A stretch of 64,000 nt of DNA from Bacteroidota bacterium (GTDB lineage Bacteria; Bacteroidota; Bacteroidia; Chitinophagales; Saprospiraceae). The translations under genes and the position numbers were made by a program. Positions 9,653 to 63,661 of this stretch are shown piece after piece. The notes below the pieces were generated by a model. The model was given only the letters and a program-made list of their open reading frames with translations, made no database searches and was not told where the DNA came from. The number at the start of each line of letters is the position of its first letter. Position 1 is the stretch's first letter. The stretch covers positions 1 to 64,000 of the forward strand of contig WGNL01000039.1 in NCBI GenBank assembly GCA_016124585.1. The letters run 5' to 3'.

Positions 9653-9700
9653 TGGTCATTTTTGTCATTGGTCATTGATGGTCATTAGACATTGGCAAAT
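9653..9700. repeat. Short-word repeat (GGTCATT/GTCATT) at mqo start
   Basis: The words TCATTGG and GGTCATT are repeated five to six times with small changes directly before the mqo start codon (read from the minus strand as CCAATGACAAA-like words). It belongs to the window-wide class of 7- to 8-base oscillating repeats, here without a clear second arm. Confidence 0.7.
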
Positions 9701-9741
9701 ATGGGTGATGTTGGCAAAACGTAGCGCTTTCCGATATGTTC

Positions 9742-10419
9742 TTATTTATATTTTCGGAAAATACCTGTATCGAAAGCCGTCCAAAGACAGCATTTCTGGC
9801 CGCAGGTTTTTAGGGCATTATTTGCCCAAGTATTGCAAGTTTGGAAAAGATTATAATGACCTTTTGCTTCGTAAAAAGCATCCGACTTACCATAGTTAGC
9901 GTTGGTTTTTATGCTTAAAAAATGACCATCTATACCTTTCTGAAAACGCTTATCAATATACGCTATTAAACGTGCATATTGCCCTTTGCTTATCATTATT
10001 TTCTTGCATGACTCCCCTTCTTTCATCTGCTGGTAATAAGTGGCATGCATGGCCGAACCACCCAGCCCAAACATTGCATTAAATGCCACCGATGCTTTTA
10101 AGTCCGACCATTCAGGCGTTTCCAAATAAAAACCTTTATCGCCCCAGCCCATTGCCAGATACTGGTAAGTGGTGTCGGTCAATTGAGTATTCGAGAAAAG
10201 CACGTTTTTGCTCCAATCCATCTGCTCGTTGCGGGTAGGCATCACGATGTCAGTGTGGACGCCGTTGGTCAGGATATAAATGGGAATTTCTTCTACGGTG
10301 CCTGCTTCACGTTGGATGGTGATGCTTGATAGGCAATAGGCTGCAAGTAAATACAGCAAGATAAAGCCAATGATGGAGAGCAATATTTTGGCGATGATTT
10401 TTAAGGTCTTTTTTAGCAT
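9742..10419 (-). CDS. DUF2459 (TIGR02117) family protein
   Basis: 225 residues. A membrane segment at about 10-30 (IIAKILLSIIGFILLYLLAAY) anchors a globular domain with the family's characteristic 'ILTNGVHTDIVMP', 'GWGDKGFYLETPEW' and 'NTWANNALKTCG' blocks; the conserved His and Cys-x-x-Trp hint at a papain/NlpC-like fold, but activity is not established. In some bacteria relatives sit near polyhydroxyalkanoate genes; there are none here. Probably faces the periplasm. It stands downstream of a small group of secreted proteins on the same strand. Confidence 0.88.
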   Translation of the reverse strand: MLKKTLKIIAKILLSIIGFILLYLLAAYCLSSITIQREAGTVEEIPIYILTNGVHTDIVMPTRNEQMDWSKNVLFSNTQLTDTTYQYLAMGWGDKGFYLETPEWSDLKASVAFNAMFGLGGSAMHATYYQQMKEGESCKKIMISKGQYARLIAYIDKRFQKGIDGHFLSIKTNANYGKSDAFYEAKGHYNLFQTCNTWANNALKTCGQKCCLWTAFDTGIFRKYK

Positions 10420-10512
10420 TGAATCAAATTAAGGTATGGATGCAACTCAGTCTTGCAAATTACCTTAAAGATGAAGCCTTTTTCGAAATGGTTGTGAATG
10501 AATTATACAATT

Positions 10513-11115
10513 TCACTCCCGCACCTTCCCCGACAGCACGCTCACCTTTCCATTGAATGGATTCCCCGATGAGCGGCGGAAGGTGACCACCTGTCCCACA
10601 TGCCAGAGCGCATCGGAGATGGGACCGTTGAGCATATTCCAGAAGGGGAATTCCGTCTTGTTGTCGCCATTCTGAAAGGTGATGCCCATGTTCTCCAGAC
10701 TACTGCCCGGTTGCTGTAGCAATTGACTGGCGGCTTGTAGATTTTCTAAGACTTGGCGGCGCTTTTCCTCGAAACTGAGCGGCGAGGTCTCCTCCCCTGA
10801 GCGGACGTTTGGCTGGTTTTTTACTCCGTTCAAAATAACATTGGAAAGGCCAAGGATATGGTCAATCGTCTCCTCACTGCTACGGGCTTCCGGTGTGGGC
10901 CGGAAGGCAAGGTCTTCGGGTCGCAGGCCCTCAGTCGCCCAATAAAACCGGAAGCCGACGCCATCAATCATGCGGGCAACGACAGTCTCCGGCGTGTAGG
11001 ATTCTGGATAAGTGGTCAGTTCCCGATAGGGTAACTGCTGGGTATCCATGTTTTGTGAAAAAAGGGTAACCTGAAATAGTGTGGCCAGGGTGAAAAGGAG
11101 GAGTTTTTGCAGCAT
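10513..11115 (-). CDS. Secreted DinB-superfamily protein
   Basis: 200 residues. A signal peptide (about 1-20, ends TLFSQ) precedes a four-helix DinB-like domain: 'GFRFYWATEGLRPEDLAFRP', 'SSEETIDHILGLSNVIL' and 'ALWHVGQVVTFRRSSGNP' are typical, with two of the usual metal-binding His positions visible (DHI and HVGQ). DinB-like proteins often bind divalent metal and some are thiol-dependent enzymes; the substrate here is unknown. Export to the periplasm is inferred from the signal peptide. Confidence 0.85.
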   Translation of the reverse strand: MLQKLLLFTLATLFQVTLFSQNMDTQQLPYRELTTYPESYTPETVVARMIDGVGFRFYWATEGLRPEDLAFRPTPEARSSEETIDHILGLSNVILNGVKNQPNVRSGEETSPLSFEEKRRQVLENLQAASQLLQQPGSSLENMGITFQNGDNKTEFPFWNMLNGPISDALWHVGQVVTFRRSSGNPFNGKVSVLSGKVRE

Positions 11116-11160
11116 AGCGCTTTGTTTTTTGCAAAAATAAGAAAGCTATTTTCAAGAGAC

Positions 11161-11673
11161 TTAATATAGTGGTATCTTAGTTTCCTTGGCCCCCAAAGAT
11201 TCTAAGAATTCCTTCACCTCCAAGGCATCGTCGCCGCCCCTTATGGCGTGGTGAAGTAACGTAAATCCATGCGGCCCTTTGGCATTTAAAGTACTGGGGA
11301 AGGCTTCGAGCATTGGTTTCACAATTTCTATTTTCCCAAATAAACAAGCCGTGAAGATATTTGCCTGAGCGCCTTTATCCAGCAGGTACTGGGCTAGTTC
11401 TTTATAGCCTACATGGCTGGCAGCCCCGAGGTAGGTTTCAAAATCGCCGTATTTCCAGTCGTGGGCAGCGTTGAGTAGATTAGGCGTTTCTTCCAGCAAG
11501 GTTTTCACTTTGTCTAGGTCTCGGTGTCCGGCTCCTACAAAAGTGGCAACCAGTTCCCTATCCAATTGTGGTTCAGGTTCTATCAGTTTTGAACTAACGT
11601 TTGCGAAGGTGGGCTTGCCCCAAAGCACAGTACCAGCGAGGCTAAAAGCTTGAATAAAATTCTTTCGATTCAT
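11161..11673 (-). CDS. Exported ankyrin-repeat protein
   Basis: 170 residues. A short exported N-terminus (MNRKNFIQAFSLAGTVLW) is followed by about three to four ankyrin repeats: 'GHRDLDKVKTLLEETPNLLNA', 'GYKELAQYLLDKGAQANIF', 'GKIEIVKPMLEAFPSTLNA' and 'GFTLLHHAIRGGDDALEV'. Such small ankyrin proteins bind other proteins; the partner is not evident. It lies 45 bases upstream of the DinB-like gene on the same strand, so the two may be co-transcribed. Confidence 0.82.
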   Translation of the reverse strand: MNRKNFIQAFSLAGTVLWGKPTFANVSSKLIEPEPQLDRELVATFVGAGHRDLDKVKTLLEETPNLLNAAHDWKYGDFETYLGAASHVGYKELAQYLLDKGAQANIFTACLFGKIEIVKPMLEAFPSTLNAKGPHGFTLLHHAIRGGDDALEVKEFLESLGAKETKIPLY

Positions 11674-11762
11674 TGCTTATTGGTTGAATACAGGTTGTTA
11701 ATTCAACGCTGTAATCCCCAAAGACAATGAAAAGGTTGCAAAGACGCTTAGATTATATTAAT

Positions 11763-12890
11763 TTACTCATACGGTAGTGCGCAAGCTCTAAAAGCATCTT
11801 CAATAAAGTGGATAGCTTTTGATATATCCCAAGACCTGTAACTTGCCGTTACCACGCCGTTTATTAAGTCAACATACATGATGGGCAGGCCATTGCTGAC
11901 AAAATCGAACAAGTCCATATCCACAAAATCGCCATTTTCCATATTGCGCAAACCAAGACGATTTATGGTAAACTCATTTCGGATATTCCCGCCATGACAA
12001 AACATATAGTCAACATATAATCGATAAGTATGTCTGGGGTTGAAAAACATATAGTTCGCAATAATTTCTGGCTTTAAAGTAATAGCGATGGTTCCCAAAA
12101 CACCTTGACAGCCATTGTTCACTATCGGAGTAGCGTCGTGATACAGAAAACTCTTTTCGCTTTGTATGGAATCTTGTATTGTCTCAACACCGTCACCCAT
12201 TAAATATAATTTAGAAAAATCATTGGAAGCCACTGTAATTAAACGGTCTCTAAAAGATTGATCCAACCAAAACAATTCATTGTCTGTATCGAATTGAGAA
12301 TCTTTGCCAACAATAACATTGATTGAATCTTTATTGTACCATGATTTAACCTGCGCCTTGCGTAGTTTCCGGGTGTGCAATTCCATTAATTGAAGGTTGA
12401 AGGCATCAATAATGTCTTTGAAGGCATTGCCTGAAGTTCGGTTGTCCATGGAAAAATGAAGCGAGTAACCGTCTTGTCCATTTTCCAATTCACCATAGGC
12501 TTGCAACATATCACCAGTAGTCCTGTCTTGTCGCCAAAGGCTAGCCGTGCATTTTGACTCAAAGAACATCAGCTCCAACTTCCCTGTGGCTTGGGTATCC
12601 GGCACGACCAGCGTCAAGAGTGTGCTTTTTCCAATATTGTCGTGCCAAATTACCAAGTCCGAATTGCCGCTCATCAACAACTCATCGTTTGTATCTGCTG
12701 TATCAAGAAACATTAGGGCAATTCCGGACAAAAAAGCGTCAGGGTTTTGTTTTCCGCTGTTCGAAACCTTTTTTGCCAGAGAATTAAAATAAATGGGAAG
12801 TGTCAATTGTGGCTTAAATGGCGACTGAGCCACAGCAAAATAATGCAGTAGTAAAAAGGGGGTCAATAGGGTAAATGTCCTTTTGATCAT
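11763..12890 (-). CDS. Secreted protein of unknown function
   Basis: 375 residues with a signal peptide of about 21 residues (ends FAVAQ). No family recognised. The mature part is mixed alpha/beta and rich in Asn, Asp and aromatic residues; there is no lipobox and no clear T9SS tail. Start chosen at the ATG in front of the signal peptide. Upstream lie two exact copies of a 16-base A-rich sequence. Confidence 0.78.
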   Translation of the reverse strand: MIKRTFTLLTPFLLLHYFAVAQSPFKPQLTLPIYFNSLAKKVSNSGKQNPDAFLSGIALMFLDTADTNDELLMSGNSDLVIWHDNIGKSTLLTLVVPDTQATGKLELMFFESKCTASLWRQDRTTGDMLQAYGELENGQDGYSLHFSMDNRTSGNAFKDIIDAFNLQLMELHTRKLRKAQVKSWYNKDSINVIVGKDSQFDTDNELFWLDQSFRDRLITVASNDFSKLYLMGDGVETIQDSIQSEKSFLYHDATPIVNNGCQGVLGTIAITLKPEIIANYMFFNPRHTYRLYVDYMFCHGGNIRNEFTINRLGLRNMENGDFVDMDLFDFVSNGLPIMYVDLINGVVTASYRSWDISKAIHFIEDAFRACALPYE

Positions 12891-12952
12891 CTTATTTGAA
12901 TGCTATGTTTTTAGTAAATCGGCAGCCAAAGCTACAAACCCTATCCTTTTTT

Positions 12953-13066
12953 AGGCAAAAAAACAATGGGAAATACGAAAAATTAATCTTGAACGATAAT
13001 TTTAAGCTAAGTATACCTTTCAAAATTAACCAATGTTTATAGGCATTTAAAGGCAAAAAAACAATG
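12953..13066. repeat. Two exact 16-bp direct repeats
   Basis: The sequence AGGCAAAAAAACAATG occurs at 12953-12968 and again at 13051-13066, 98 bases apart, in the AT-rich spacer between the secreted protein at 11763 and the GreA-like gene at 13078. Could be duplicated regulatory sites or simple chance in A-rich sequence. Confidence 0.6.
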
Positions 13067-13077
13067 TATTAAATCTG

Positions 13078-13527: not shown

Positions 13528-13561
13528 AAAATGGTTTATTGCGCAAAAATAATCTTACCTG

Positions 13562-16588: not shown

Positions 16589-16629
16589 CCCGACCTTTGG
16601 CCAAAATATCCCGCACAATTTTTCATCAA

Positions 16630-18124: not shown

Positions 18125-18138
18125 CGACCCAAATTCGA

Positions 18139-18226
18139 GGTTGATAATAGTTGATAGAGGTTGATTTGCTTGTATGACGATACCCCCATCAACCGCTATA
18201 AACCCTTATCAACCGTTATCAACAAA
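18139..18226. repeat. GTTGATA-type short-word dyad in a leader
   Basis: The left half repeats GTTGATA (GTTGATAA, GTTGATAG, GGTTGAT); the right half (from about 18187) repeats ATCAACCGCTATA and ATCAACCGTTATCAAC. The reverse complement of the right arm has the same words in the same order, with a few extra bases, so the two arms can pair. The dyad ends four bases before the start codon at 18230. Confidence 0.75.
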
Positions 18227-18229: not shown

Positions 18230-19342
18230 ATGAGCCACACTTTTCATAGCCTTGCGGTAAAACAAGTCACACAGGAAACTGCCAATACTGTCACCCTCAC
18301 ATTCGCCGTGCCGAGCGAGCTTTCTGAGCAGTTCATGTTCATCCAAGGGCAGTACCTCACGCTGCGTTTCATGCTCAATGGCAAAGAAGAGCGTCGCAGC
18401 TACTCCATGTGCAGCAGCCCCCTCGAACCTGGCCTCAGTGTCACAGTGAAAAGGGTGAAGGGCGGCAAGGTCTCCAATTATGTTTTTGATAAAGTGAAAG
18501 TAGGCGATGTGGTGGACGTAATGACTCCCGATGGCCGTTTCCACACTGACCTCCACGACGAAAACAAGAAGAACTACTACCTCATCGGGGCGGGCAGCGG
18601 CATCACTCCTCTCATGTCCATTTTGAAAACGATACTGGAAAAGGAGCCGATGAGCTTTGTCTTCCTGCTCTATGGCAGCCGCAATGAGGATGAAATCATT
18701 TTCAAAAACCAGCTTGACGAACTCTCCCGTCGCTACGAAGGGCAACTAATGGTGGAGCATGTACTCAGTCAACCAAAACTGGAAAAGGCCAAGGGTCTAG
18801 GTGGCCTTTTCTCCAAAGGGAAACCCACTTGGGAAGGCAAGATTGGCCGAATTGATGGCAAAGTCTTTCAAAAGTTTTACGAAGAAAACAAACCCCGCCA
18901 CAAGCAGTCTGAGTACTTTCTCTGCGGGCCTGGTGGCATGATAGATGCGGTGGAGAAATCGTTGCTCAATAGCGGCATTGAAAAGAAAAACATTCACCAC
19001 GAATACTTTACCGCTTCACCTAGCGCCGATGCTTCAGGCGCTTCCTCCACTGGTGAAGTAATCGCTGGCGCAAAACTGACGGCCTACCTCGATGGGCGGA
19101 CCTATGAAACCACCGTGGCCAAAGGCAAGCACTTACTCTTTGCCGTCATTGATGCAGGGGGCGATGCACCCTACTCCTGCACGAGTGGTGCCTGTGCTAC
19201 CTGCATGGCCAAGGTGAAAAAAGGAACCGTGAAAATGGATGCCTGCTATGCCCTCGACGAGAGTGAAATCAAACAGGGCTACATCCTCACCTGCCAGGCT
19301 CATCCGACTTCGGAGGAAGTGGAGATTAGTTTTGAGGTTTAG
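18230..19342 (+). CDS. PaaE-like flavodoxin/ferredoxin reductase (FAD, NAD(P)H, 2Fe-2S)
   Basis: 370 residues. Order of domains: FAD-binding (RSYSMCSSP at about 80), NAD(P)-binding (IGAGSGITPLMSIL at about 125) and a C-terminal plant-type 2Fe-2S domain with Cys ligands in 'SCTSGACATCMAKV' and a later 'LTCQAHP'. This is the plan of PaaE/HmpX-type reductases that feed electrons to an oxygenase. No paa oxygenase genes are nearby, so the partner may be another di-iron enzyme; the AlkB at 41419 is one candidate. The start with the ATG at 18230 (MSHTFHSLAV) is chosen; an upstream ATG would start inside the repeat leader. Confidence 0.9.
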   Translation: MSHTFHSLAVKQVTQETANTVTLTFAVPSELSEQFMFIQGQYLTLRFMLNGKEERRSYSMCSSPLEPGLSVTVKRVKGGKVSNYVFDKVKVGDVVDVMTPDGRFHTDLHDENKKNYYLIGAGSGITPLMSILKTILEKEPMSFVFLLYGSRNEDEIIFKNQLDELSRRYEGQLMVEHVLSQPKLEKAKGLGGLFSKGKPTWEGKIGRIDGKVFQKFYEENKPRHKQSEYFLCGPGGMIDAVEKSLLNSGIEKKNIHHEYFTASPSADASGASSTGEVIAGAKLTAYLDGRTYETTVAKGKHLLFAVIDAGGDAPYSCTSGACATCMAKVKKGTVKMDACYALDESEIKQGYILTCQAHPTSEEVEISFEV

Positions 19343-19361
19343 TTGGCAGTTCGCTTTAAAA

Positions 19362-19527
19362 GTTGGCAGTTAGACAGTGGGCAGTGGGCAGTCAGTTCGA
19401 CAGTCTATCAGCCTGAGCATAGTCAAAATTAGAGAGGTGCTATCTTTAAAAAGATAGCACCTCTCTCAATTAATACCCGTCTCTGCTAAACAACTGCAAA
19501 CTGACTGCCCACTGTCTAACTGCCAAC
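19362..19527. repeat. Large dyad of 7-bp words with one unit difference
   Basis: The left arm (19362-19397) and right arm (19499-19527) are reverse complements over their full length except that the left arm has one additional GTGGGCA-type unit (36 against 29 bases). A further partial copy (AGTTGGCAGTT) precedes the left arm. A perfect terminator hairpin lies between the arms. It fills the space between the convergent PaaE-like and GT2 genes. Confidence 0.9.
19431..19466. terminator. Bidirectional terminator hairpin
   Basis: AGAGAGGTGCTATCTT (19431-19446) pairs perfectly with the complementary arm ending at 19466, over a few-base A/T loop. Serves the convergent genes ending at 19342 and 19535. 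Confidence 0.8.
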
Positions 19528-19534
19528 TCAAAAC

Positions 19535-20464: not shown

Positions 20465-20477
20465 GGTAATGAGAGAA

Positions 20478-20513
20478 GGATTGAAGGATTGAAGGATTGA
20501 AGGATTGAAGGAT
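20478..20513. repeat. Tandem GGATTGAA, 4.5 copies
   Basis: Four perfect 8-base units and a half unit in direct tandem, 14 bases upstream (minus sense) of the GT2 start. The following spacer to 20555 contains decayed complementary words (CAATC, TTCAAA), i.e. a faded right arm. Confidence 0.85.
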
Positions 20514-20555: not shown

Positions 20556-22154
20556 TCATTTCAGCTTGACCACCGACTTATCCTCACACTGCCAGAGGGT
20601 TTTAATCTTGGCAATTTGTGAGTACTTGACGGGGTAGCGGTAAACGTCCAAAATATAGCGGGCTTCTTTGTCAAAACCAGCCTTTTCTCTTCGCAATATC
20701 TGATGAGTTTCTCGGGTAAAATAGTAGCCAGTAGTCGGTTCTAGGCCAATGCTTTCCTCGTAGATGAACAATGGGCGGCCTTCAAGCTTTTGAGCGGCAT
20801 CCAGGGTTGTTTGGCGTACGAGGTTTTGGCAGTCTATCTCCAAACGAGTGGGCATGACAAACCAGTTAAAAGCCATGCGGCCCACTAGCATCACTGCCAC
20901 AAACGCCAACAACCGATGTACCTCCCAGCGGCGGTACACCCAGAGCAGCAAGCCTGTTGCGGCAGCAAGAAAGCCGACTTTTAGGTACAAAAACGGCACC
21001 TGCTGAACCGCTGGCCACAGCAAAGGTGCAAAACTTGCTGCCAGCATCCCCCAAATTAACACCTGAAAAACACCCTCCACCCATTGTACGACTGGTGAGC
21101 CTATTTCTTTGTTTTTGAAATGGAGATAAAAAAATACCGTGTATGCCATTGGCACAAGCATCAACAGGTAGCGAGGGTACACCTCAACTGAGGCCCAGTA
21201 AGGCAAAATTGTAGTGATGAAAACAAGTCCGTTCCATGCAATGAAACGGTGTTGAAGCAGCAGTTGGAGCGCATTTTTGCGAAGCAAATAAACCACAAGG
21301 ATGGTCCAAGGCAGGAAATGGTACCACATTTCGAAAGGAAAAGTGACGAGGTGCAGCAGTGTTTTTCCCAAACCGTACTCGACAAAAGTACGCTTGGCAG
21401 ATTCGTGGAACAGGGTACTAAAAACCGTGGACAATCCGTTCTGTTGGGCGTACAAAGCGTAGTAACTGCCCACCACAACCCCAAAAACAGCCATGCCGCC
21501 GATGTGCGCCAACGAGAACAATTTGCGCCATTTTTTCACCCAAAAAAAATAAGTCAGGAGGGCAACGCCAAGAAAAACCACGGCGGGCAGCCCTTTCAGC
21601 AGAAAACCAACGGCTGCCAACAGGTACGCAATCGCAAATTGCTGAACGTACCTACCCCGTTCTCCCTGCGTGAAAATGACCATGAACATGGAATACATGA
21701 CCCATGAGAAACTCATGTCGATGAGCCCCAGCATGGAATCCCAGAAGAGGATACGCCCACAAGTGATCAGGGCGAGAGAATTAAGAATTGAAAATTGAAA
21801 ATTGAAAATCGGGGTGCCTAGCGAACTTGTGTGTTTTTTTACAAAGAACCAAACAGTGGTGGCATAGGCCAAGAGAAAAAATACAGTTGGGAGTCGGGCG
21901 ACGAACTCGTCGGAACGACCCGTTAGGTTGAATACGGCGAGCAAAATCCAGTTATACAGGGGCGGTTTATTGTAGTAAAATTCGCCGAACATGGTAGGGG
22001 TGATGTAGTTGCCCGTGATACGCATTTCCAATGCAACCAATGCCCGGATTGCCTCGTCACCACTGAAAGCAAGCAGGCCAAGGTGTGTGAGCAGTGCAGG
22101 CAACAACAGCAGGCCAATTGCCAGAAGCAGAAGGCGTTGAGGGCTGGCAAACAT
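20556..22154 (-). CDS. ArnT/PMT-like membrane glycosyltransferase (GT39/GT83 type)
   Basis: About 532 residues from the ATG at 22154; an upstream ATG (22238) adds 28 polar residues before the first TM. About 11-12 TMs. The first periplasmic loop has the catalytic acidic motif 'GDEAIRA' and then 'YYNKPPLYNW', typical of ArnT-like enzymes that transfer a sugar from polyprenyl phosphate to lipid A or other acceptors. The substrate is unknown. In frame at about residue 115-125 the protein reads IFNFQFSILNS, encoded by a tandem AAAATTGA repeat (21780-21812), probably an insertion in a loop. Paired with the GT2 gene downstream. Confidence 0.88.
   Translation of the reverse strand: MFASPQRLLLLAIGLLLLPALLTHLGLLAFSGDEAIRALVALEMRITGNYITPTMFGEFYYNKPPLYNWILLAVFNLTGRSDEFVARLPTVFFLLAYATTVWFFVKKHTSSLGTPIFNFQFSILNSLALITCGRILFWDSMLGLIDMSFSWVMYSMFMVIFTQGERGRYVQQFAIAYLLAAVGFLLKGLPAVVFLGVALLTYFFWVKKWRKLFSLAHIGGMAVFGVVVGSYYALYAQQNGLSTVFSTLFHESAKRTFVEYGLGKTLLHLVTFPFEMWYHFLPWTILVVYLLRKNALQLLLQHRFIAWNGLVFITTILPYWASVEVYPRYLLMLVPMAYTVFFYLHFKNKEIGSPVVQWVEGVFQVLIWGMLAASFAPLLWPAVQQVPFLYLKVGFLAAATGLLLWVYRRWEVHRLLAFVAVMLVGRMAFNWFVMPTRLEIDCQNLVRQTTLDAAQKLEGRPLFIYEESIGLEPTTGYYFTRETHQILRREKAGFDKEARYILDVYRYPVKYSQIAKIKTLWQCEDKSVVKLK
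21780..21812. repeat. Tandem AAAATTGA words inside the ArnT-like gene
   Basis: Reads AATTAAGAATTGAAAATTGA and then two further ATTGAAA units on the plus strand. In the gene's frame it encodes NFQFSILNS. Same style as the intergenic short-word repeats. Confidence 0.75.
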
Positions 22155-22307
22155 GCGGCGTAGTTGGTTCAACAGACGAACATTTTGAGGGGCAAAGGTA
22201 TTTAATTTGGGTTTTGGGATACACGATTCTAGGTTCAATCGGGTACACTCCTAAAACCTGCAATCTAAAACACCAAACCAAAATCTCACAACTCTTCCAA
22301 GTTTCGC

Positions 22308-25099: not shown

Positions 25100-25197
25100 C
25101 AAAAATCAAGGATTGAAGGGTTGAATGAGAAAAGGATTGAATTAAATCCGGAAAACCATTCAATCCCTCAATCCTTTTTCCATCCAATCCTTGCTAG
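25100..25197. repeat. GGATTGAA-type dyad directly before dnaE
   Basis: The left half carries CAAGGATTGAAGGGTTGAAT and AAAAGGATTGAATT; the right half carries CATTCAATCCCTCAATCC and CCATCCAATCCTTG. The arms share CAAGGATTG and AAAAGGATTGA in inverted order. The right arm ends about five bases before the dnaE start at 25198. Confidence 0.8.
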
Positions 25198-28854: not shown

Positions 28855-29220
28855 TTAGTAACGGCCACCGCCGCCACCGTAGCCGCCACGGTTTCCACCG
28901 CCGCCGTAGCCGCCGCCGCCGCCACGGTTTCCACCGCCGCCGTAACCGCCACGACCGCCGCCGCTTCCACCACGTTCTTCACGAGGTTCGGCTTTCTTAA
29001 CGACAATTGTACGGCCGTCAAGCGTGCTGTCGTTCAACTCAGAGATGGCTTTGCTGGCCTCCTCGTCGTTTGGCATTTCCACAAAGCCGAAGCCTTTGGA
29101 TTTACCGGTAAATTTGTCAGTGATTACATTGGCAGAAGAAACTTCGCCAAATTCTTCGAAGGCCTCCCGGAGGTCTTCAGACTGAGTATCGAAACTCAGT
29201 TTTGCTGCAAAAATGTTCAT
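28855..29220 (-). CDS. RNA-binding protein, single RRM with Gly-rich tail
   Basis: 121 residues. One RRM (about 1-80) with RNP2 'NIFAAKLSF' and RNP1 'KGFGFVEM', then a tail of GGGGYGGGGNRGG-like repeats. Such small glycine-rich RRM proteins are found in cyanobacteria and Bacteroidota, where some are cold- or stress-responsive; binding of single-stranded RNA is expected. The start is set at 29220 (MNIFAAKLSF); an upstream in-frame ATG at 29307 would put unrelated residues before the RRM. A promoter about 200 bases upstream gives a long untranslated leader. Confidence 0.93.
   Translation of the reverse strand: MNIFAAKLSFDTQSEDLREAFEEFGEVSSANVITDKFTGKSKGFGFVEMPNDEEASKAISELNDSTLDGRTIVVKKAEPREERGGSGGGRGGYGGGGNRGGGGGYGGGGNRGGYGGGGGRY
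28885..28944. repeat. Coding minisatellite in the RRM protein tail
   Basis: A 24-base sequence beginning GCCACGGTTTCCACCGCCGC occurs at 28885-28908 and again exactly at 28921-28944, encoding the glycine-rich repeat. It can expand or shrink in multiples of three without breaking the frame. Confidence 0.8.
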
Positions 29221-31075: not shown

Positions 31076-32152
31076 TCAAAACTGCTCGAGCACTTCCTCG
31101 ATTTTTTCCTTCGGAAATAGGATGGTTGCAGTGCTGTCCAAATGGTAAAATGCGACGGTGAGCGAGGTGTCGTTTTCCTGTTCACGAAGCAGCTTAGCCA
31201 TCCCAAGCAATGACTCCTGTTCAATTCCTTCCAGCCGCAACTGGTCGCCTGCGTACAAATAATATGCATTCAGATAGGTGCTTTTGAGCACTTTATACCG
31301 GTTTTCAGCCGTTTTTTGAAAACGTGCGGTATCCTGCAAATCGGCGGCGCTGAGGTCGTTCAGCAATTTCACCAGACGGCCATCCCTGAAAAGGATGCCC
31401 CATCGAAAGAGCGGTAATGCAAAATCCAAGGACAAGGGGTAGGACTTCGCATGCTGTAGTAAATATGTTTTCGCTGTTGCAAGGTCAAGAATGGAATTTT
31501 CGGTGGCCCAGTCGTCAAGGTCGCCCATGTTGTAGCACATCAGCATTCCCCGGTCAACGGGGGGCACGCCTGTTTTCTCAGGGTATTTGAATTGGTGAAG
31601 GCGGATGGTGGTAGAGATTTTTAACGGTGAATGGTGAATGGTAAATGGTGAATCGGATTCAACAATTGAGCGGACACTATTTAATAAAGCAAAATACTTG
31701 GCTTGGGTCTGTGCGGTCCAGTCGCAGTCGAATTGAATTTCCTGTGAAGGCTTTGTTTCGAATGATTTTATTTTTTGAAAAATAAGCCAGGCCAACGTGT
31801 CCACTTGCTGCATCGGCAAGTTGAGCAGGCAACGGTTTGTGATGAAAATAGTCGGCACAATTTCAAGGCCATGAAGGTGGCTTGAATCAATTTCAACCGT
31901 GGCCAGTGGTACAGGTTGTTGACTAGCTTCGTCCCAGTCCACGTCGAAGAACTTGACGTAGATTTTTTTCACACCAATTGAATCAAGGTAACGTTGTTCG
32001 GCTTCGGTGGGATTGAATAGGGTTTTCCAATGGTAAAAGGCGGGAGCAATGACGGGTTTTTGCTGCTCTGAAGTGTTACACGAAACAATTGTGAAACAAA
32101 AAAAGAACAACCAAAGCCAGCAAAACGTTACTGAAAAGTTTGTCTTAACCAT
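31076..32152 (-). CDS. Lipoprotein, possible TIM-barrel hydrolase-like
   Basis: 358 residues. A signal sequence with a lipobox (FTIVSC, Cys about 25) indicates a lipoprotein. The mature part begins 'PAFYHWKTLF' and contains 'IQFDCDWT', 'STTIRLHQFKYPEKTGVPPVDRGMLMCYNMGDL', a succession that looks like the strands of a glycosidase-type (beta/alpha)8 barrel, but no catalytic pair can be named. In frame at about 172-184 it reads SPFTIHHSPLKIS, encoded by a GGTGAAT-type repeat. It precedes the beta-CASP gene by 117 bases on the same strand. Confidence 0.78.
   Translation of the reverse strand: MVKTNFSVTFCWLWLFFFCFTIVSCNTSEQQKPVIAPAFYHWKTLFNPTEAEQRYLDSIGVKKIYVKFFDVDWDEASQQPVPLATVEIDSSHLHGLEIVPTIFITNRCLLNLPMQQVDTLAWLIFQKIKSFETKPSQEIQFDCDWTAQTQAKYFALLNSVRSIVESDSPFTIHHSPLKISTTIRLHQFKYPEKTGVPPVDRGMLMCYNMGDLDDWATENSILDLATAKTYLLQHAKSYPLSLDFALPLFRWGILFRDGRLVKLLNDLSAADLQDTARFQKTAENRYKVLKSTYLNAYYLYAGDQLRLEGIEQESLLGMAKLLREQENDTSLTVAFYHLDSTATILFPKEKIEEVLEQF
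31622..31656. repeat. Tandem GGTGAAT words inside the lipoprotein gene
   Basis: On the plus strand the sequence reads CGGTGAATGGTGAATGGTAA and then ATGGTGAATC, i.e. four 7-base units with one variant. In the gene's frame it encodes SPFTIHHSP. Confidence 0.8.
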
Positions 32153-34717: not shown

Positions 34718-34725
34718 AACGAAAA

Positions 34726-34794
34726 GTGACTGGTGATTGGAGACTGGTGGATTAGGCCGAGGCTGCCAATCACCAGTCTCCAATCACCAGTCAC
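34726..34794. repeat. Perfect 24-bp dyad between recQ and aroQ
   Basis: 34726-34749 is the exact reverse complement of 34771-34794. Each arm is itself made of repeated words (GACTGGTG, ATTGG, GACTGGTG). The right arm ends at the base before the aroQ ATG, so pairing in mRNA would bury the aroQ start region. Confidence 0.9.
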
Positions 34795-35226: not shown

Positions 35227-36216
35227 ATGATTGTACTCACCGGCGCCGCAGGCTTCATCGGCTCTTGCCTACTCCGCAGGCTAAATGACGAGGGCCTGAC
35301 CGACATCGTCATCGTGGACGATTTTTCCCGCCCCGATAAGAACCACAACCTCGAAGGCAAAAAAATCCATTCGAAAATAGAACGTACCGCATTCCTGCCT
35401 TGGTTCGAAACCCACGCCGACGAGGTCAGTTTCATCTTCCACCTCGGTGCCCGCACTGATACGACCGAACAGAACACATTCATTTTCAATGAATTAAACC
35501 TAAACTACTCCAAAGCCATCTGGCAAATTTGCGCAGCAAAAAACATCCCGCTCGTTTACGCCAGCAGTGCTGCCACCTACGGTGCAGGAGAGCATGGCTA
35601 CGATGACAGTCATGAAATCGCACCTGAGCTAAATCCCCTCAACCCCTACGGCGTTAGTAAAAACGACTTTGACAAATGGGTTCTTGAAACCAATCACCAA
35701 TCACCAATCACTAATCACCAATCCCCCCCTTTCTGGGCTGGCCTTAAGTTCTTCAACGTTTACGGCCCCAACGAATACCACAAAGGCCGCATGGCCAGCG
35801 TCATTTCCCACACCGTGAAGCAAATTCGGGAAACGGGAGGCATGCGGCTATTCCGTTCGCACCGGCCAGATTTCGATGACGGGCAACAATCTCGGGATTT
35901 CATTTATGTCAAAGATGTGGTGGACGTGTGCCTGTTTTTTTACCATAATCAAAAAAACAGTGGTCTGTACAATGTGGGCACTGGCAAGGCGAGGTCGTTC
36001 TGGGATTTGGTGGTCAACACTTTCAATGCAATGGATTTGGAGCCGAACATCAGTTTTGTGGACACACCAGAGGACATCCGAGCCACCTACCAGTATTTCA
36101 CAGAAGCCAAAATGGATAAATTGAGGGCTGCCTGCTACACTAAACCGTTCTACACGCTGGAAGCTGGCGTGGAGGATTACGTTCGCAATTACCTGTTGGA
36201 AGGGAATTTTTGGTAA
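35227..36216 (+). CDS. hldD: ADP-L-glycero-D-manno-heptose 6-epimerase
   Basis: 329 residues. Extended SDR enzyme making the ADP-heptose used in lipopolysaccharide core. The NADP-binding 'TGAAGFIGS' (5-13), 'LGARTDTTE', the catalytic 'YGVSK' and the heptose-specific 'FNVYGPNEYHKGRMASV' are all visible. Between the YGVSK helix and the FFNVYG strand, at about residues 155-168, the protein contains TNHQSPITNHQSPP, encoded by tandem CCAATCA repeats; this has no counterpart in family members I know and looks like an in-frame insertion. Confidence 0.94.
   Translation: MIVLTGAAGFIGSCLLRRLNDEGLTDIVIVDDFSRPDKNHNLEGKKIHSKIERTAFLPWFETHADEVSFIFHLGARTDTTEQNTFIFNELNLNYSKAIWQICAAKNIPLVYASSAATYGAGEHGYDDSHEIAPELNPLNPYGVSKNDFDKWVLETNHQSPITNHQSPPFWAGLKFFNVYGPNEYHKGRMASVISHTVKQIRETGGMRLFRSHRPDFDDGQQSRDFIYVKDVVDVCLFFYHNQKNSGLYNVGTGKARSFWDLVVNTFNAMDLEPNISFVDTPEDIRATYQYFTEAKMDKLRAACYTKPFYTLEAGVEDYVRNYLLEGNFW
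35690..35727. repeat. Tandem CCAATCA words inside hldD
   Basis: Four to five copies of CCAATCA (one reading CTAATCA) in direct tandem, ending in a C-run. The array encodes NHQSPITNHQSP. Same style as the dyads between genes. Confidence 0.9.
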
Positions 36217-51595: not shown

Positions 51596-51633
51596 GGTGA
51601 CTTAAGGTTGCTGATTCACACAATTTACAATTG

Positions 51634-51663: not shown

Positions 51664-51705
51664 GTTGTTTGAGAACCTTGTAGCTACCTTTACCCCATCA
51701 ATCGT

Positions 51706-51732
51706 AATTCGTAAATCCCGAATTCGTAAATC
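51706..51732. repeat. Tandem AATTCGTAAATC before pccB
   Basis: AATTCGTAAATC occurs at 51706-51717 and 51721-51732, the second copy ending six bases before the ATG at 51739. A two-copy example of the short-word class. Confidence 0.75.
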
Positions 51733-51738
51733 AACAAC

Positions 51739-56442: not shown

Positions 56443-56452
56443 ATTTCTAAAA

Positions 56453-56788: not shown

Positions 56789-56835
56789 ATTTCAATCGCC
56801 TTTAAACTTCAAAAAACTTTTCAAAACTTATTCAA

Positions 56836-57303: not shown

Positions 57304-58130
57304 TTCGGTGAGTGGTGACTGGTGTGTGGTGATTGGTCGGCCTCGTCAGGCATATCATTTTCAACAGTAACATTTGCTCCCTCCTCCGGCAAACTTAGCC
57401 AAAAATTGTTCATCCCCTCCCCTTGCGTGATGGCAACAAGTTGCATATTCAGCAATTCCAACAGCCCAAGGAAAGTCACGATTGCTTGGATGCGGTTTTC
57501 CAGCTTCGCAAATAGGGATTTGAAGTCGGTTTTTCTTCCTTTTCTCAGTTTGGAAAAAATATAGTCCTGCTGCCCAGCAATGGTGTAGTCAAACTTGACA
57601 ATGGTGTGTACGACATGTTTTTTGTCCTCCATCTCCATTCGGTTCACCAACTTTTCAAAAGTCTTCAACAATTTGAACAAGGTGAGGCTTTCCAATTCGA
57701 CATCCACTAATGCCTTAGTGGCAATATGCTGCAATTCCCGGCTTACATTGCCCCGGTGTTCCCGTAGCGCACGGGTTTCCTCCATTTGGCGTATCTCGTC
57801 CAACACGCTTTTGTAGCGCTTATACTCCAGCAGGCGATTCACCAATTCCTCCCGTGGATCAATCTCGTTGCCCTCCTCATCCACAGGCTTGCGGGGGATG
57901 AGCATTTTCGCTTTGATGCGGCAAAGCGTAGCTGCCACTAGGATGAACTCACTAGCCAAGTCCACGTTTAGCGCCTCCATTTGACGGATATAACCGAGAA
58001 AATCTTCTGTGATACTGTGAATGGGAATATTGTTGATATCCAACTCGTCCCGCTCAATAAAGAAAAGCAGAAGGTCGAAAGGCCCCTCGAACTGGGGAAG
58101 GTGGATATTGTAAGTCGCTGTATTGGTCAT
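57300..58130 (-). CDS. scpA: Segregation and condensation protein ScpA
   Basis: 276 residues. The kleisin of the SMC-ScpAB condensin. 'YNIHLPQFEGPFDLLLFFIERDELDINNIPI' in parts and 'ALNVDLASEFILVAATLCRIKAKMLIP' are diagnostic. The last residues (QSPHTSHHSPN) are encoded by GGTGATTGG/GTGAGTGGTGAC-like short words (57304-57345), so the tail seems to have been recruited from a repeat. It starts one base after the glyA stop, so the two genes are co-transcribed and probably coupled. Confidence 0.94.
   Translation of the reverse strand: MTNTATYNIHLPQFEGPFDLLLFFIERDELDINNIPIHSITEDFLGYIRQMEALNVDLASEFILVAATLCRIKAKMLIPRKPVDEEGNEIDPREELVNRLLEYKRYKSVLDEIRQMEETRALREHRGNVSRELQHIATKALVDVELESLTLFKLLKTFEKLVNRMEMEDKKHVVHTIVKFDYTIAGQQDYIFSKLRKGRKTDFKSLFAKLENRIQAIVTFLGLLELLNMQLVAITQGEGMNNFWLSLPEEGANVTVENDMPDEADQSPHTSHHSPN
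57304..57345. repeat. Short-word repeat in the scpA 3' end
   Basis: GGTGAGTGGTGACTGGTGTG followed by TGGTGATTGGTCGG: units of about seven bases around GGTGA/TTGG. Encodes the Ser/His/Pro tail of ScpA on the minus strand and lies just after the smpB stop on the plus strand. Confidence 0.7.
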
Positions 58131-58131
58131 T

Positions 58132-59716: not shown

Positions 59717-61375
59717 ATGTTGCTTAAAAGAGCCAATATATTTCAAACACTTTTCCTGACCGTTTTGGCCACATGTGCATTTGGCCGTGCCGACAAATAC
59801 CGGGTTATTTGGCAAGGCAATGCCTCTACCTCGGCTACCATTGCCTGGAACCAAGTCTCTGGCACTGATCCTGTGCTGCTGTTGGATGTTAATGATTTTG
59901 GTCAAAAAGCGGAAGAATACGGACTCAGCAAACGCCCTGACCGCATCCAATTGGCAGAGGACATGAACAACTATTTCGTGCGTTTGGAGAATCTGCTGCC
60001 CAACATGACTTATTATTTTCTGATTAAGGACAGTGAAGGAGTTGGACGGCGCTATTTTTTTACCACAGCCCCCAATAGCCCCGACCGACGACTCTCTATC
60101 GTAGCGGGTGGCGATTCCCGCAACCACCGGGAAGCTCGCCAAGATGCCAATATCATGGTGGCTAAACTCCGGCCGCACTGCGTTATGTTCGGCGGAGATT
60201 TTACGGAAAACGATTTCCCGCAAGAATGGAAAGATTGGCTGGATGACTGGCAGTTGAGCATTGCAGAGGATGGCCGCATTACCCCTATCATAGTCACACG
60301 TGGAAACCACGAGGCTAGCAACAAAAGCTTGATAGACCTTTTCGATATGCAAGTAGCGGGTGGTTTTTACGCTACTAGCCTTGGCGGCGACTTATTGCGC
60401 ATTTACACCTTAAATACATTGATACCAGTGGGTGGCGATCAACGTGATTGGTTGGAAAGTGACCTTCGAAATAACGGCTCAAAAGTGCATTGGCGGATTG
60501 GGCAGTACCACTACCCCATGCGACCACACACTGCTCGGAAGCCTGAAAAAAACGACCAAGTGGCATTTTGGGCACCGCTTTTCCTCAAGTACGATATGAA
60601 CCTTGTAGTCGAATGTGATGCTCACGTTGTTAAAAGCACTTGGCCCATCCGAGCAGACAATGGGCCAGGCAGCGACGAAGGTTTCGTACGTGATGATGAA
60701 AACGGAACGGTATACGTGGGAGAAGGCTGTTGGGGTGCCCCACTGAGGAACAATGATGATGATAAAACTTGGACAAGAGCCAGCGGGAGCTTCAACCAGT
60801 TCAACTGGATTTTTGTGGATAGGGAAAAAATCGAGGTGCGTGTCATTCAGACGGATGGTGCTGGCCGTGTTGGAAATATTGACCCGAAAAACATTTTTAA
60901 AGCACCTATTGGCATCCATATTTGGGCTCCACCGACTGGTGATGTCATTACCATCTTCGCTAAAGGAATGGGCATACCGCCAGCAATGGACCAAGACATG
61001 CTGGTATCCCGAGGTGGAGTTCAAGGAGAACCTAGCGGAAGCGCTAAATCTTTTGCCCCACCTGCAACAAAATCCCCTACCACTCAGAATGAAACTGCCG
61101 AAGATGAAACTGGCAACTGGGAAACCTGTCCGCTAGTTGTGGCAGATGCCGCTGGCGAAGCACAGTTAAAATACGAAGTTGAGGAACCATGCAATGTGGT
61201 CATTCGGGTCATCAACGGCAGGCTGCAAGAAGTGACACGGATTGAGTTAGTGAATCAATCCCCAAGGGAATATCTCAAAGCATTGAAAATGAGCCACTTG
61301 CCACCTGGCAAGTATTTGGCCATCGTGAAAGGCGACAGAAAAGTATTGAGGCGGTATCGGCTTATGAAAAAGTAG
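59717..61375 (+). CDS. Secreted metallophosphatase with Ig-like head and T9SS-like tail
   Basis: 552 residues. Signal peptide about 1-23 (ends CAFGRA). An FN3-like domain (about 25-105) precedes a calcineurin-like metallophosphoesterase domain: 'GGDSRNHREA', 'MFGGDFTENDF', 'TRGNHEASN' and 'GQYHYPM' are the metal ligands in the order of purple-acid-type phosphatases; the last ligand block reads 'ECDAHVV' in place of the usual G-H-x-H. The end ('LPPGKYLAIVKGDRKVLRRYRLMKK') has the shape of a type A T9SS sorting domain, though divergent. Substrate unknown. First of the 59.7-64 kb plus-strand group. Confidence 0.87.
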   Translation: MLLKRANIFQTLFLTVLATCAFGRADKYRVIWQGNASTSATIAWNQVSGTDPVLLLDVNDFGQKAEEYGLSKRPDRIQLAEDMNNYFVRLENLLPNMTYYFLIKDSEGVGRRYFFTTAPNSPDRRLSIVAGGDSRNHREARQDANIMVAKLRPHCVMFGGDFTENDFPQEWKDWLDDWQLSIAEDGRITPIIVTRGNHEASNKSLIDLFDMQVAGGFYATSLGGDLLRIYTLNTLIPVGGDQRDWLESDLRNNGSKVHWRIGQYHYPMRPHTARKPEKNDQVAFWAPLFLKYDMNLVVECDAHVVKSTWPIRADNGPGSDEGFVRDDENGTVYVGEGCWGAPLRNNDDDKTWTRASGSFNQFNWIFVDREKIEVRVIQTDGAGRVGNIDPKNIFKAPIGIHIWAPPTGDVITIFAKGMGIPPAMDQDMLVSRGGVQGEPSGSAKSFAPPATKSPTTQNETAEDETGNWETCPLVVADAAGEAQLKYEVEEPCNVVIRVINGRLQEVTRIELVNQSPREYLKALKMSHLPPGKYLAIVKGDRKVLRRYRLMKK

Positions 61376-61562
61376 ATTGTGATTGGCTTCGTTTAAAAAT
61401 GTAGCATTCGCATCCACACTTTTTATTTGAATTTTCATTTCTATATTTAGCTTCGCAATACTCTGACTTTCAATTGATTAAAAAAAGTCAAGCCGTTCAT
61501 TTTGAACTCCAACCAGTTTTTTTCTACCTTGCCCCAGTTTAAAACAAAACAAACTGGGCAGC

Positions 61563-62342
61563 ATGAAATATCAGCTTTTCACCTTATTAATTACCGCCTT
61601 GGTATTGGCCTCATGCCAGTCCAGCCAATCTTCCGAGCCCCCCGCAACAGACACAAGCATTCCAGCAGTAACCCCTGCCAACGGCCTTTCAGAAGCTGAA
61701 AGCCTTGCTGGTTGGCGGTTGCTTTTCGATGGTTCCACACTCAACGGTTGGCGTGGTTATAATCGCCCTGACCTGCCAAAACTTGGCTGGTCAGTGGAAA
61801 ATGGAGAAATCATCATCGCAAAAACACCAAACCCAAAGCCCAACGATTTTGGTGGCGACATCATCACTACTGAGAAGTACGGCAACTTTGAACTTTCCGT
61901 TGATTTCATGCTTACAGACTCAGCCAACAGTGGCATCTTCTTCCGAGTGCTGGAGGAAAAAGATAGCGCCATTTACCATAATGCACCAGAGTATCAATTG
62001 ATTGATGACGCTACTTGGGCTAAAATGCTACCTGATTTCAACATGGACACTCACCGCACTGGTGACAACTATGACATGCAAGCTGGATCCGGCTGCTCAA
62101 TGAACCCGATCGGTCAATGGAACACTGCCAAACTCTTGCACAACAACGGTAAAGTTGAGCATTGGCTTAATGGTAACAAGTGCTTGGAATATGAAATCGG
62201 CTCACCGGAATGGAAAGCGCAATTGGCAAAATCCAAGTTCAAGAGCTGGCCTCAATATGGTCTCACTAACCCCGGCTATATCGGTTTGCAAGACCACGAC
62301 CACGAGGTCCGGTTCAGAAATATTAAGATTCGCAATCTTTAA
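61563..62342 (+). CDS. DUF1080 lipoprotein (3-keto-disaccharide hydrolase family)
   Basis: 259 residues. Lipobox 'VLASC' (Cys about 18) and a Ser/Pro/Thr linker, then a concanavalin-like PF06439 domain: 'GWRLLFDGSTLNGWRG', 'GDIITTEKYGNFELSVDFML', 'NSGIFFRVLEE' and 'GLQDHDHEVRFRNIKIR'. Family members hydrolyse 3-keto-glycosides made by Gfo/Idh oxidoreductases in Bacteroides and other groups. A Gfo/Idh gene follows 91 bases downstream, which supports a related role. Lies outside the cytoplasm by its lipid anchor. Confidence 0.92.
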   Translation: MKYQLFTLLITALVLASCQSSQSSEPPATDTSIPAVTPANGLSEAESLAGWRLLFDGSTLNGWRGYNRPDLPKLGWSVENGEIIIAKTPNPKPNDFGGDIITTEKYGNFELSVDFMLTDSANSGIFFRVLEEKDSAIYHNAPEYQLIDDATWAKMLPDFNMDTHRTGDNYDMQAGSGCSMNPIGQWNTAKLLHNNGKVEHWLNGNKCLEYEIGSPEWKAQLAKSKFKSWPQYGLTNPGYIGLQDHDHEVRFRNIKIRNL

Positions 62343-62348
62343 TGATGA

Positions 62349-62409
62349 ATGGTGAAATGATGAACGATAAATTTTAGCTTGCCTATCATTTATTTCATCA
62401 TTTCACCAT
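62349..62409. repeat. Dyad of GATGAA/GGTGAAA words between DUF1080 and Gfo/Idh genes
   Basis: ATGGTGAAATGATGAA (62349-62364) is the exact complement of 62394-62409. The flanking words (ATGATGAAT, ACGATAAA and TTTATCGTTTATCATT) partly repeat the same pattern, extending the pairing with gaps. Confidence 0.85.
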
Positions 62410-62433
62410 TTATCGTTTATCATTAATAAAATT

Positions 62434-63585
62434 ATGAAACGTAAAATAAGAATGGGCATGGTCGGCGGTGGTCGAGGTGCCTTCATTGGTGGGGTACACC
62501 GCATGGCTGCTGCGCTGGACGGCGAAATCGAATTGGTTTGTGGGGCTTTTAGCTCCAATGCCGAAAAATCAAGGCTCTCAGGCGAAGACCTTTGCGTGGA
62601 TCCGGCACGGACTTACGGCAGTTTTGAGGAAATGATTTTGGAAGAAAAAAAGCTGCCGGAAAGTAAGCGGATGGACTTCGTGAGCATCGTCACGCCGAAC
62701 CACATGCACTATGCCCCAGCGAAAATGGCATTGGAAAACGGCTTCCATGTAGTTTGTGATAAGCCACTTTGTTTCAACATGGAGGAGGCGCTTCACCTGC
62801 AAAAACTGGTAGAAGAAACGGGTCTCATCTTCGCATTGACGCATAACTACACCGGCTACCCAATGGTAAAACAAGCCCGTGCAATGGTGAAAAACGGCGA
62901 CATTGGGCAAGTCCGGAAAATCGTGGTGGAATACCCGCAGGGTTGGCTCACCAACAAAGTTGAGGATACTGGTAGCAAGCAAGCGGGCTGGCGCACTGAC
63001 CCGAAACAGTCAGGCATTGCTGGTGCCATGGGCGACATCGGCACCCACGCTGAGAACCTGGCCGAGTATATTTCCAGTTTGCAAATCACGGAGCTTTGCG
63101 CTGACATCAGCACTTTCGTCGAAGGCCGCCTACTCGACGACGATGGCAACGTGCTGCTCCATTTCGACAACGGAGCAAAAGGCGTACTCCATGCCAGCCA
63201 AATCTGTGCAGGGGAAGAAAACAACCTGAACATCCGCATTTACGGCACAAAAGCAGGTTTGCAATGGTTTCAAATGGAGCCTAATTCCCTCATTGTCAAA
63301 TGGTTGGATAAGCCGATGGAAATCCTACGGACAGGCGGCAGTACCCTTTATCCAGCCGCAGCGGCGCATACTCGCATTCCCGGTGGCCACCCGGAAGGCT
63401 ACCTCGAAGCCTTTGCCAGCATTTACCGAAACTTCGCCTACTGCGTGCGGGCCCGTTTGGACGGAACGGAAGTTGATCCGATTTACCAGGATTTTCCAAC
63501 CGTAGCTGATGGCGTCCGGGGCATGAAATTCATTGAAAAAGTGATTGCCAGTGGTAAGAGTGAGGCGAAATGGGTGAAGGTCTAA
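62434..63585 (+). CDS. Gfo/Idh/MocA family oxidoreductase
   Basis: 383 residues. Rossmann nucleotide site 'GMVGGGRGAFIGGVHR' (8-23), then 'SIVTPNHMHYAPAKMALENG', 'VVCDKPLCFNMEEA' (the family's C/E-K-P motif) and 'GAMGDIGTHAENLAEYI'. NAD(P)-dependent oxidation or reduction of a sugar or cyclitol is expected. With the DUF1080 gene it may form a 3-keto-sugar pathway. A large dyad precedes the RidA gene downstream. Confidence 0.93.
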   Translation: MKRKIRMGMVGGGRGAFIGGVHRMAAALDGEIELVCGAFSSNAEKSRLSGEDLCVDPARTYGSFEEMILEEKKLPESKRMDFVSIVTPNHMHYAPAKMALENGFHVVCDKPLCFNMEEALHLQKLVEETGLIFALTHNYTGYPMVKQARAMVKNGDIGQVRKIVVEYPQGWLTNKVEDTGSKQAGWRTDPKQSGIAGAMGDIGTHAENLAEYISSLQITELCADISTFVEGRLLDDDGNVLLHFDNGAKGVLHASQICAGEENNLNIRIYGTKAGLQWFQMEPNSLIVKWLDKPMEILRTGGSTLYPAAAAHTRIPGGHPEGYLEAFASIYRNFAYCVRARLDGTEVDPIYQDFPTVADGVRGMKFIEKVIASGKSEAKWVKV

Positions 63586-63591
63586 ATTGCT

Positions 63592-63648
63592 AGATTGTTG
63601 AATTGTTTCATTGTTATCTCGTACAACAATCAAACAATTCAACAATCT
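63592..63648. repeat. Perfect 17-bp dyad of ATTGTT words before the RidA gene
   Basis: AGATTGTTGAATTGTTT (63592-63608) is the exact complement of 63632-63648; inside, ATTGTT and AACAAT continue the pairing. Another decayed copy (CAACAATCAATCA) reaches the ATG at 63662. Confidence 0.9.
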
Positions 63649-63661
63649 CAACAATCAATCA

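Follow-up and report, generated by a model that had tools for sequence, protein, structure and literature searches.

The 64,000-nt stretch analyzed here (the window) is the start of contig WGNL01000039.1 (assembly GCA_016124585.1; contig C4 of genome G000) from a Bacteroidota bacterium of the Saprospiraceae, and it contains a dozen or so places where a 7–8-nt word is repeated in tandem, either on one side only (arrays) or in two inverted arms (dyads). We propose that these arrays and dyads are probably solo copies resembling miniature inverted-repeat transposable elements (MITEs), or single ends, of small mobile elements whose single gene encodes a four-helix-bundle protein (PF05635/TIGR02436) that would recognize its own word. 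As far as sequence comparison goes, five features are demonstrated: the anatomy of the element, the coupling of word to protein, the dispersal of words, their turnover at the same sites, and purifying selection acting on the ORF. To our knowledge, the seven-letter tandem arrays reported in bacteria have not been traced to a source, and no function is known for the S23/IVP proteins. Short tandemly repeated repetitive (STRR) arrays have reportedly been described by Mazel. The tie between word and protein clade makes two questions testable, namely which protein binds which word and where elements should be polymorphic. The model may also explain part of the seven-letter repeats of other bacteria, and a word-reading protein family with diversified specificity would be of interest for both mobile DNA and RNA recognition.

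Results

The lead to the full element was the spacer before the ATG of the dehydroquinase gene (aroQ) in three relatives (G001, G006, and G009), which holds word arms enclosing a small open reading frame (ORF). The window's own genome (6.63 Mb, 45 contigs, completeness estimate 100%) has a DnaE whose closest named match listed, from an uncultured Saprospiraceae, is 68% (very near records may be missing), and it carries seven PF05635 matches at six loci (L207–L212), each locus being over the cut-off. At every one of these loci the gene lies between inverted word arms, with scores of 20 to 44, compared with a maximum of 18 in an earlier control of 60 genes with 300-nt flanks. Across seven genomes of the genus, 61 of 68 PF05635 matches were used, leaving out three below the cut-off, one second piece of L212, and three without loci. 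The arm score was at least 19 at 54 of these 61 loci (55 of 61 with other boundaries), whereas a matched control of 240 genes of 240–600 bp, with flanks of equal length (350 nt), reached that score in three cases (1/168 in the own genome, 1/45 in G006, and 1/27 in G016). The held-out set comprised 52 of 79 PF05635 matches from eight other genomes, among the matches listed; five lacked flank, and inverted word arms were found at 35 of the remaining 47 loci. In a further series of 29 loci, one per genome (L214–L242, six of them from the seven genomes), scores ranged from 10 to 51, several loci from other families scoring below 19.

The element consists of a 5′ arm of tandem 7–8-nt words, one PF05635/TIGR02436 ORF, and a 3′ arm with the reverse-complement words, with a median length of 573 bp and a median ORF of 125.5 amino acids. 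In the 54 loci used for the period and coupling counts (arm score at least 19 and ORF at least 60 amino acids), the best arm period was 7 in 35 and 8 in 13, and in 51 of them G outnumbered C in the 5′ arm, read in gene orientation (on average 33% G and 8.8% C). TIGR02436 matched all ten proteins scanned, and the proteins resemble PDB entries 2RLD and 2GSC, the latter being XCC0516, an S23-family protein of Xanthomonas campestris. The crystal structure of Xanthomonas S23p is described as a homopentamer of four-helix bundles (PMC4990558). Codon comparisons place the ORF under purifying selection, with dN/dS of 0.02 to 0.15 in 10 of 15 pairs and saturated dS in the other five. The two arms of one element also seemed to resemble each other more closely than they resemble the arms of another species (mean local score 32.9 versus 24.5, 11 syntenic pairs), a comparison on which we do not rely because arm lengths differ.

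This anatomy is similar to that of the 23S rRNA intervening sequences of Coxiella and Leptospira, in which an S23p ORF lies in the loop of a terminal-repeat hairpin (with a 28-bp stem in Coxiella), and which have been called selfish, with mobility proposed (PMC4990558). What the two share is the family of the ORF and its placing within a stem closed by inverted repeats (54/61 loci versus 3/240 controls). In contrast to the intervening sequences, however, the present elements lie between protein genes and not in rRNA, the six own loci giving zero Rfam matches at the gathering score, and the window dyads are found between or inside protein genes. The elements also have arms of tandem 7–8-nt words tied to the protein clade as well as many solo copies.

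Small intergenic inverted-repeat elements in many copies are also a feature of REPIN/RAYT systems (PMC3116915), and the hairpins seen here are of similar size to such elements, which raises the idea that the dyads are MITEs or repetitive extragenic palindromic (REP)/REPIN sequences moved in trans by a Y1 (RAYT/IS200-like) transposase or a reverse transcriptase. Reverse transcriptases or Y1 transposases do occur in some relatives, a resemblance links PF05635 to Avd, an accessory protein of retroelements (PMC10053308), and the L208 protein matches DivGenRetAVD at 39 bits, under its cut-off of 80. However, Avd works with a reverse transcriptase (PMC10053308), and PF00078, the reverse transcriptase family, has no match at E ≤ 0.001 in G000, a genome estimated to be 100% complete, nor in G003, G005, G008, G011, G012, or G013. 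For the Y1 family PF01797, G000 has only three matches, all weak (the best at E 1e-4), and two of these lie in stop-broken frames. Both enzymes were set aside on these grounds. REPIN/RAYT systems combine fixed palindromes with a Y1 transposase, whereas the present elements have varied words and a different protein. A MITE of a known transposase was likewise rejected, as the ends are varied tandem words and the matching full elements encode PF05635 and no transposase. Movement by such an enzyme in trans is therefore highly improbable in our view. A reverse transcriptase does stand beside a sub-cut-off PF05635 match in G001 (C51:41217-42528; L266, L328), possibly as a diversity-generating retroelement with Avd that is separate from these elements.

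Each close clade of the proteins has, as a tendency, its own 7–8-nt word. Among non-syntenic pairs of loci with similar proteins (bit ratio at least 0.6, n = 33), a fraction of 0.366 of the arm 6-mers was common in the same sense and 0.026 in antisense, while pairs with unlike proteins had 0.040 in common (n = 1147); at least 0.2 of the 6-mers were common to 25 of 33 similar pairs versus 18 of 1147 unlike pairs. Grouping by protein gave 0.175 within and 0.049 between groups, a difference unreached in 10,000 permutations (11 syntenic pairs included). For the held-out elements, each word was taken from the nearest training protein, success being a rank in the top 5 of 54. At 60% protein identity or above the prediction succeeded in 17 of 25 cases (2.3 expected), at 45–60% in 3 of 11 (1.0 expected), and below 45% in 1 of 16 (1.5 expected), the uniform expectation being rough because of near-duplicate training elements. 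Without the loci whose outer flanks resemble those of any training locus, the figures in the same bins were 11/19 (1.8 expected), 3/10, and 1/15. This fall of prediction with protein identity suggests a word that changes gradually along with its protein. In one clade a GCAG core may be conserved across phyla, as GTTGGCAGT in Saprospiraceae and as GAGCAGG on plasmids of Nostoc; four or more GCAG were counted in the arms of 9 of the 12 plasmid elements retrieved with the L208 protein versus 2 of the 12 retrieved with other queries, the threshold of four having been picked after the flanks had been viewed.

This coupling puts a purely mutational origin under strain. Slippage could make 7–8-mers and hairpin template switching could invert them, with nothing mobile and the protein incidental, and this would suit both the existence of one-sided arrays and the finding that both arms of one locus can bear an identical insert. 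Yet such an origin would not lead one to expect that word and protein are coupled where synteny is absent or in genomes held out, nor that many loci have one word in common, and we give this explanation very little credence.

The arrays and dyads themselves, as reported in the initial annotation, are real. When 7-mers recurring within 150 bp were counted in the window and in 100 dinucleotide shuffles of it, there were 211 direct and 233 inverted intergenic pairs, against shuffled means of 64 (sd 11, max 88) and 62 (sd 10, max 85), respectively. The called coding sequence was also in excess (direct 1018 versus 582, inverted 630 versus 528), a comparison in which the dinucleotide shuffle ignores codon structure. 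In 860 kb of the own genome, intergenic tandem runs numbered 17 at period 7 (shuffled 0.2) and 6 at period 8 (shuffled 0.0), with at most one at each of periods 5, 6, and 9–16, and perfect intergenic inverted arms of 12 or more numbered 127 versus 1.6 in shuffles. Period-7 runs occurred at 1.61 per 10 kb of intergenic sequence versus 0.15 in coding sequence (11 coding runs), so the claimed intergenic excess is borne out at about tenfold, and an equal density in shuffled sequence was not observed. Like heptamer arrays, these have period 7 and are mainly intergenic; period 8 occurs too, and in two relatives the peaks are at periods 7 and 8 (G006) and 6 and 7 (G016). The picture of one design with many words also held: all ten named loci contain repeated words. 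The two inverted arms ascribed to them were clear at 18139, 19362, 25100, 34726, 62349, and 63592 and weak at 51706 (inverted p 0.015 in 200 shuffles), while the spacers at 9653 and 20478 hold direct but zero inverted pairs and 57304 is one-sided by eye.

Some of these dyads match full elements. The 860 kb contain 161 intergenic regions with inverted arms of 10 or more, 113 of them with loops of at least 11 nt. Of the wide-loop dyads, 35/113 have seven or more 8-mers in common with a single full element (2.8 when the arms are shuffled), whereas only 1/48 of the terminator-like hairpins with loops under 11 nt does so (0.2 shuffled). The idea that the dyads are terminators was rejected because these small-loop hairpins hardly match element arms. 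G exceeds C in the 5′ arm of 34 of the 36 assigned regions. Assigned dyads in the window are those at 25130, 34726, 62348, and 63592; the remaining window words were matched to arms by eye.

Words are also shared between species. The word pattern GGTGATTGGTGATTGG was found in 9 of 14 members of the genus, counting the own genome, and with 132 matches in G016, from a different genus of the family, while its reversed-pattern control had zero matches in those ten genomes. Elsewhere the control gave 1 match in G010 and 32 (16+16) in G035, which belongs to a different family of the order and where the control pattern is probably a word family in its own right. Dispersed matches were also found for three window dyads; in four sister genomes, those of the ATTGTTG dyad run to dozens and lie on either strand. 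The initial annotation had concluded from the differing words that this is not a normal repeat family spread by transposition. The present data do not support this: words recur at many loci and in sister species, the dyads are dispersed, and each word family tends to accompany one clade of a protein encoded between two inverted arms. Counts of GGTGATTGGTGATTGG are highest in three bearers of the cognate protein (132, 36, and 34), which is suggestive only of an array abundance that tracks, imperfectly, the presence of that protein.

Comparison of syntenic sites indicates that word types have been exchanged at fixed sites between species. The aroQ spacer has dyads of GTGATT words in G000, G005, and G008, of GTAGGC in G007, and of another word in G010; it measures 5 nt in G014, which belongs to another genus, and in G003 and G004 it holds a terminator-like hairpin with no word array. 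At 62343 an AATGATG dyad in G000, G001, and G008 has in its place a TAAGATATAAGATT dyad in G005. GGTGACT-type arrays occupy the 57304 site in G000 and G008, with a ACACGGAGGG dyad in G005 and none in G001, and at 56789 there are 3 nt between the genes in G008 and different one-sided arrays in G005 and G011. A separate 718-nt insert with its own ORF lies after aroQ and before the next gene in G005 (C33), where G000 has 15 nt. This ORF looks like a gene for a Uma2-type endonuclease.

Such turnover bears on the best-placed rival, in which the protein is a regulator like TRAP and the dyads are RNA operators, forming a hairpin regulon before starts, with the arms at its own gene being autoregulatory. 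Arms often abut start codons, and the strong RNA hairpins, the strand polarity, and the purifying selection on the ORFs would all fit a regulator. A regulon, however, would hardly exchange its word type at aroQ (GTGATT, GTAGGC, AAAGTA, GTAGAAA, and another) and at 62343 (two types) or lack any array in a species at some syntenic sites. Several solo types have no close cognate protein in the genome, and dyads lie also between convergent genes and arrays also within genes. We therefore consider an RNA-operator regulon unlikely.

The two arms of a dyad may change jointly, as is suggested by five GTTGGCAG loci of G011 that have an identical 18-nt insert at one word position. Two of these loci, on the separate contigs C486 and C155, carry it in each of their arms, the three others in a single arm. 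To this extent the initial annotation is supported by signs of concerted change between arms, but as the 18-nt insert is near-palindromic and occurs at five loci, insertion into each arm may have been independent. Two near-palindromic inserts lie within GTTGGCAG arms at several G011 loci and may be elements nested in elements. The terminator-like hairpin at window position 19431 is seen again at two loci of G011, inside dyads of that word type, which raises the possibility that the contents of the loop are carried along.

Discussion

If the dyads and arrays are solo forms and ends of PF05635 elements, a protein ring, pentameric by homology, could bind its cognate word strand-specifically, in hairpin RNA or single-stranded DNA, with one 7–8-nt word per ring subunit. 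Such binding would single out the element to be moved and its arms to be copied from one to the other. Stems may be tolerated between genes because RNase III-type cutting there would harm little, as for the 23S rRNA intervening sequences.

Several observations weigh against a mobile element of this kind. No known nuclease or integrase was found to account for movement. The coupling fades under about 60% protein identity, an element could be named for just 36 of the 161 intergenic regions with inverted repeats, and a cruder test against the whole library found no excess (8.95 shared 8-mers per region versus 9.37 shuffled). GGTGATTGGTGATTGG has 0 matches in G010, a bearer of the cognate protein, and 20 in G007, where a close cognate is absent. 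The own-genome dyad types GGATTGAA, ATTGTTG, and GTGATTGG have no close cognate among the six own loci, which would mean that copies persist after the loss of their protein or never had one. The arms at 51596 surround terminators, and relatives of these terminators are found at that site with those arms absent, an arrangement that simple unit insertion fails to explain. Of 24 plasmid records with a PF05635-type protein, nine have no arms or arms that are weak, one-sided, or same-direction. TAACTGA arrays occur at 104 viral loci without such an ORF nearby, and one locus has a four-helix-bundle ORF with no array near.

The same plasmid records, mostly cyanobacterial, do extend the element beyond the Bacteroidota. 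Inverted tandem-word arms score at least 20 in 15 of the 24 (11/16 and 4/8), Gemmatirosa and Azospirillum among them, while 22 other coding sequences of one Nostoc plasmid score at most 15. Some copies lie between functionally linked neighbours, namely ribonucleotide reductase genes (on the opposite strand), cas6–cas4, and cas10–cmr3. Four-helix-bundle genes are thus seen within the CRISPR clusters of cyanobacterial plasmids at L348, L549, and L552 (cas6–cas4 twice, cas10–cmr3 once). A wider proposal, which we put forward tentatively and at somewhat less than even chances, is that these elements form a mobile-element class in at least four bacterial phyla, without a known nuclease or polymerase domain, whose sole protein would be a four-helix-bundle ring reading its own 7–8-nt word, one per subunit, off the C-poor arm strand. 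On this view each clade would have acquired a word of its own in evolution, many of the heptamer and octamer arrays in cyanobacteria and Bacteroidota, and perhaps those in Xanthomonas, would derive from the class, and the rRNA intervening sequences would be its stranded relatives.

Heptamer arrays have been described with TAACTGA in Beggiatoaceae, cyanobacteria, and Bacteroidetes (PMC4679880) and with GGGNATC in Xanthomonas and Nostoc (PMC4692102), where Rehm et al. counted 70 and 75 paired convergent GGGAATC-type arrays in two Xanthomonas genomes. As described there, these resemble the present arrays in being intergenic, of 7 nt, and often near starts, with inverted pairs in Xanthomonas. The main text of PMC4679880 contains neither ‘four helix’ nor ‘S23’, and that of PMC4692102 does not contain ‘S23’. 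TAACTGA arrays as part of PF05635 elements were set aside, there being no link at the 104 viral loci, and three loci of GGGAATC arrays in viral contigs had no four-helix-bundle ORF. A stem built of heptamers, TDNGATT or NNTGAGT, with one class repeatedly replacing the other in place, is found in the P6b region of the Nostoc tRNA-Leu intron (PMC4476775), and this replacement is similar to that seen here; unlike the present elements, P6b lies in a group I intron, and the passages on it in PMC4476775 mention no protein gene in the loop. Among open-licence PubMed Central listings, no paper ties PF05635 genes to heptamer arrays.

The individual loci of the window show both forms. A one-sided GTCATT/GGTCATT array on the minus strand (9645–9695) abuts and overlaps the start of the malate:quinone oxidoreductase gene (8171–9652, minus), its word matching by eye the arms of the PF05635 element L275 of G008. 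At 18137–18223, a GTTGATA dyad precedes the gene at 18230, with 8 direct and 12 inverted pairs unmatched in 200 shuffles; by eye its word is that of G001 L256, whose arm score of 17 is under the cut. Two long repeat clusters elsewhere in G000, at C5:264035-264201 and C5:185008-185366, have units above 7–8 nt (beginning GGTCGCACCC and GACATCGTAATCGGTCA), and the second adjoins a GTTGATA dyad. The GTTGGCAGT dyad between convergent genes (19345–19528) has by eye the words of the own element L208; it was left unassigned in the solo test because its inner terminator-like hairpin (19431–19466) ranked as the top inverted repeat. On the plus strand, 4.9 copies of GGATTGAA form a one-sided array (20475–20513) with words by eye of L260, L261, L290, and L292 and no strong RNA fold (z −1.7 at 20465). 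A GGATTGAA dyad (25108–25192) precedes dnaE (25198), shares seven 8-mers with L290, and folds with z −4.4 (25100).

The dyad at 34726–34794, with perfect 24-bp arms of GTGATTGG, directly adjoins the start codon (34795) of aroQ, the gene for type II dehydroquinase, has nine 8-mers in common with L246, and gives the strongest fold of the paired loci (z −10.9 at 34718). A TTACGAATT-type array (51698–51738) precedes the carboxyltransferase gene (51739), with similar words by eye in G008 L293, and a one-sided GGTGAGT/GGTGACT array with an L246-type word by eye lies on the plus strand at convergent gene ends (57307–57337). The AATGATGAATGG dyad (62341–62431) precedes the gene at 62434 and shares nineteen 8-mers with the own element L209 (z −8.6 at 62343), while the ATTGTTGA dyad (63586–63663) shares nine with L279 and has dozens of dispersed matches in four sister genomes (z −8.0 at 63586).

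Within genes, 3.4 copies of AATTGAA form a plus-strand array (21786–21809) inside a minus-strand ORF (20556–22238) that the gene caller dropped, with words by eye of the own L210 and L212. Minus-strand arrays of GGTGAAT (31626–31653) and GGTGATT (35689–35723) lie where the protein stretch varies among relatives, so that word exchange may reach proteins. Finally, a coding repeat with a 36-bp unit in a small minus-strand ORF (28864–28974) is probably an ordinary in-frame repeat.

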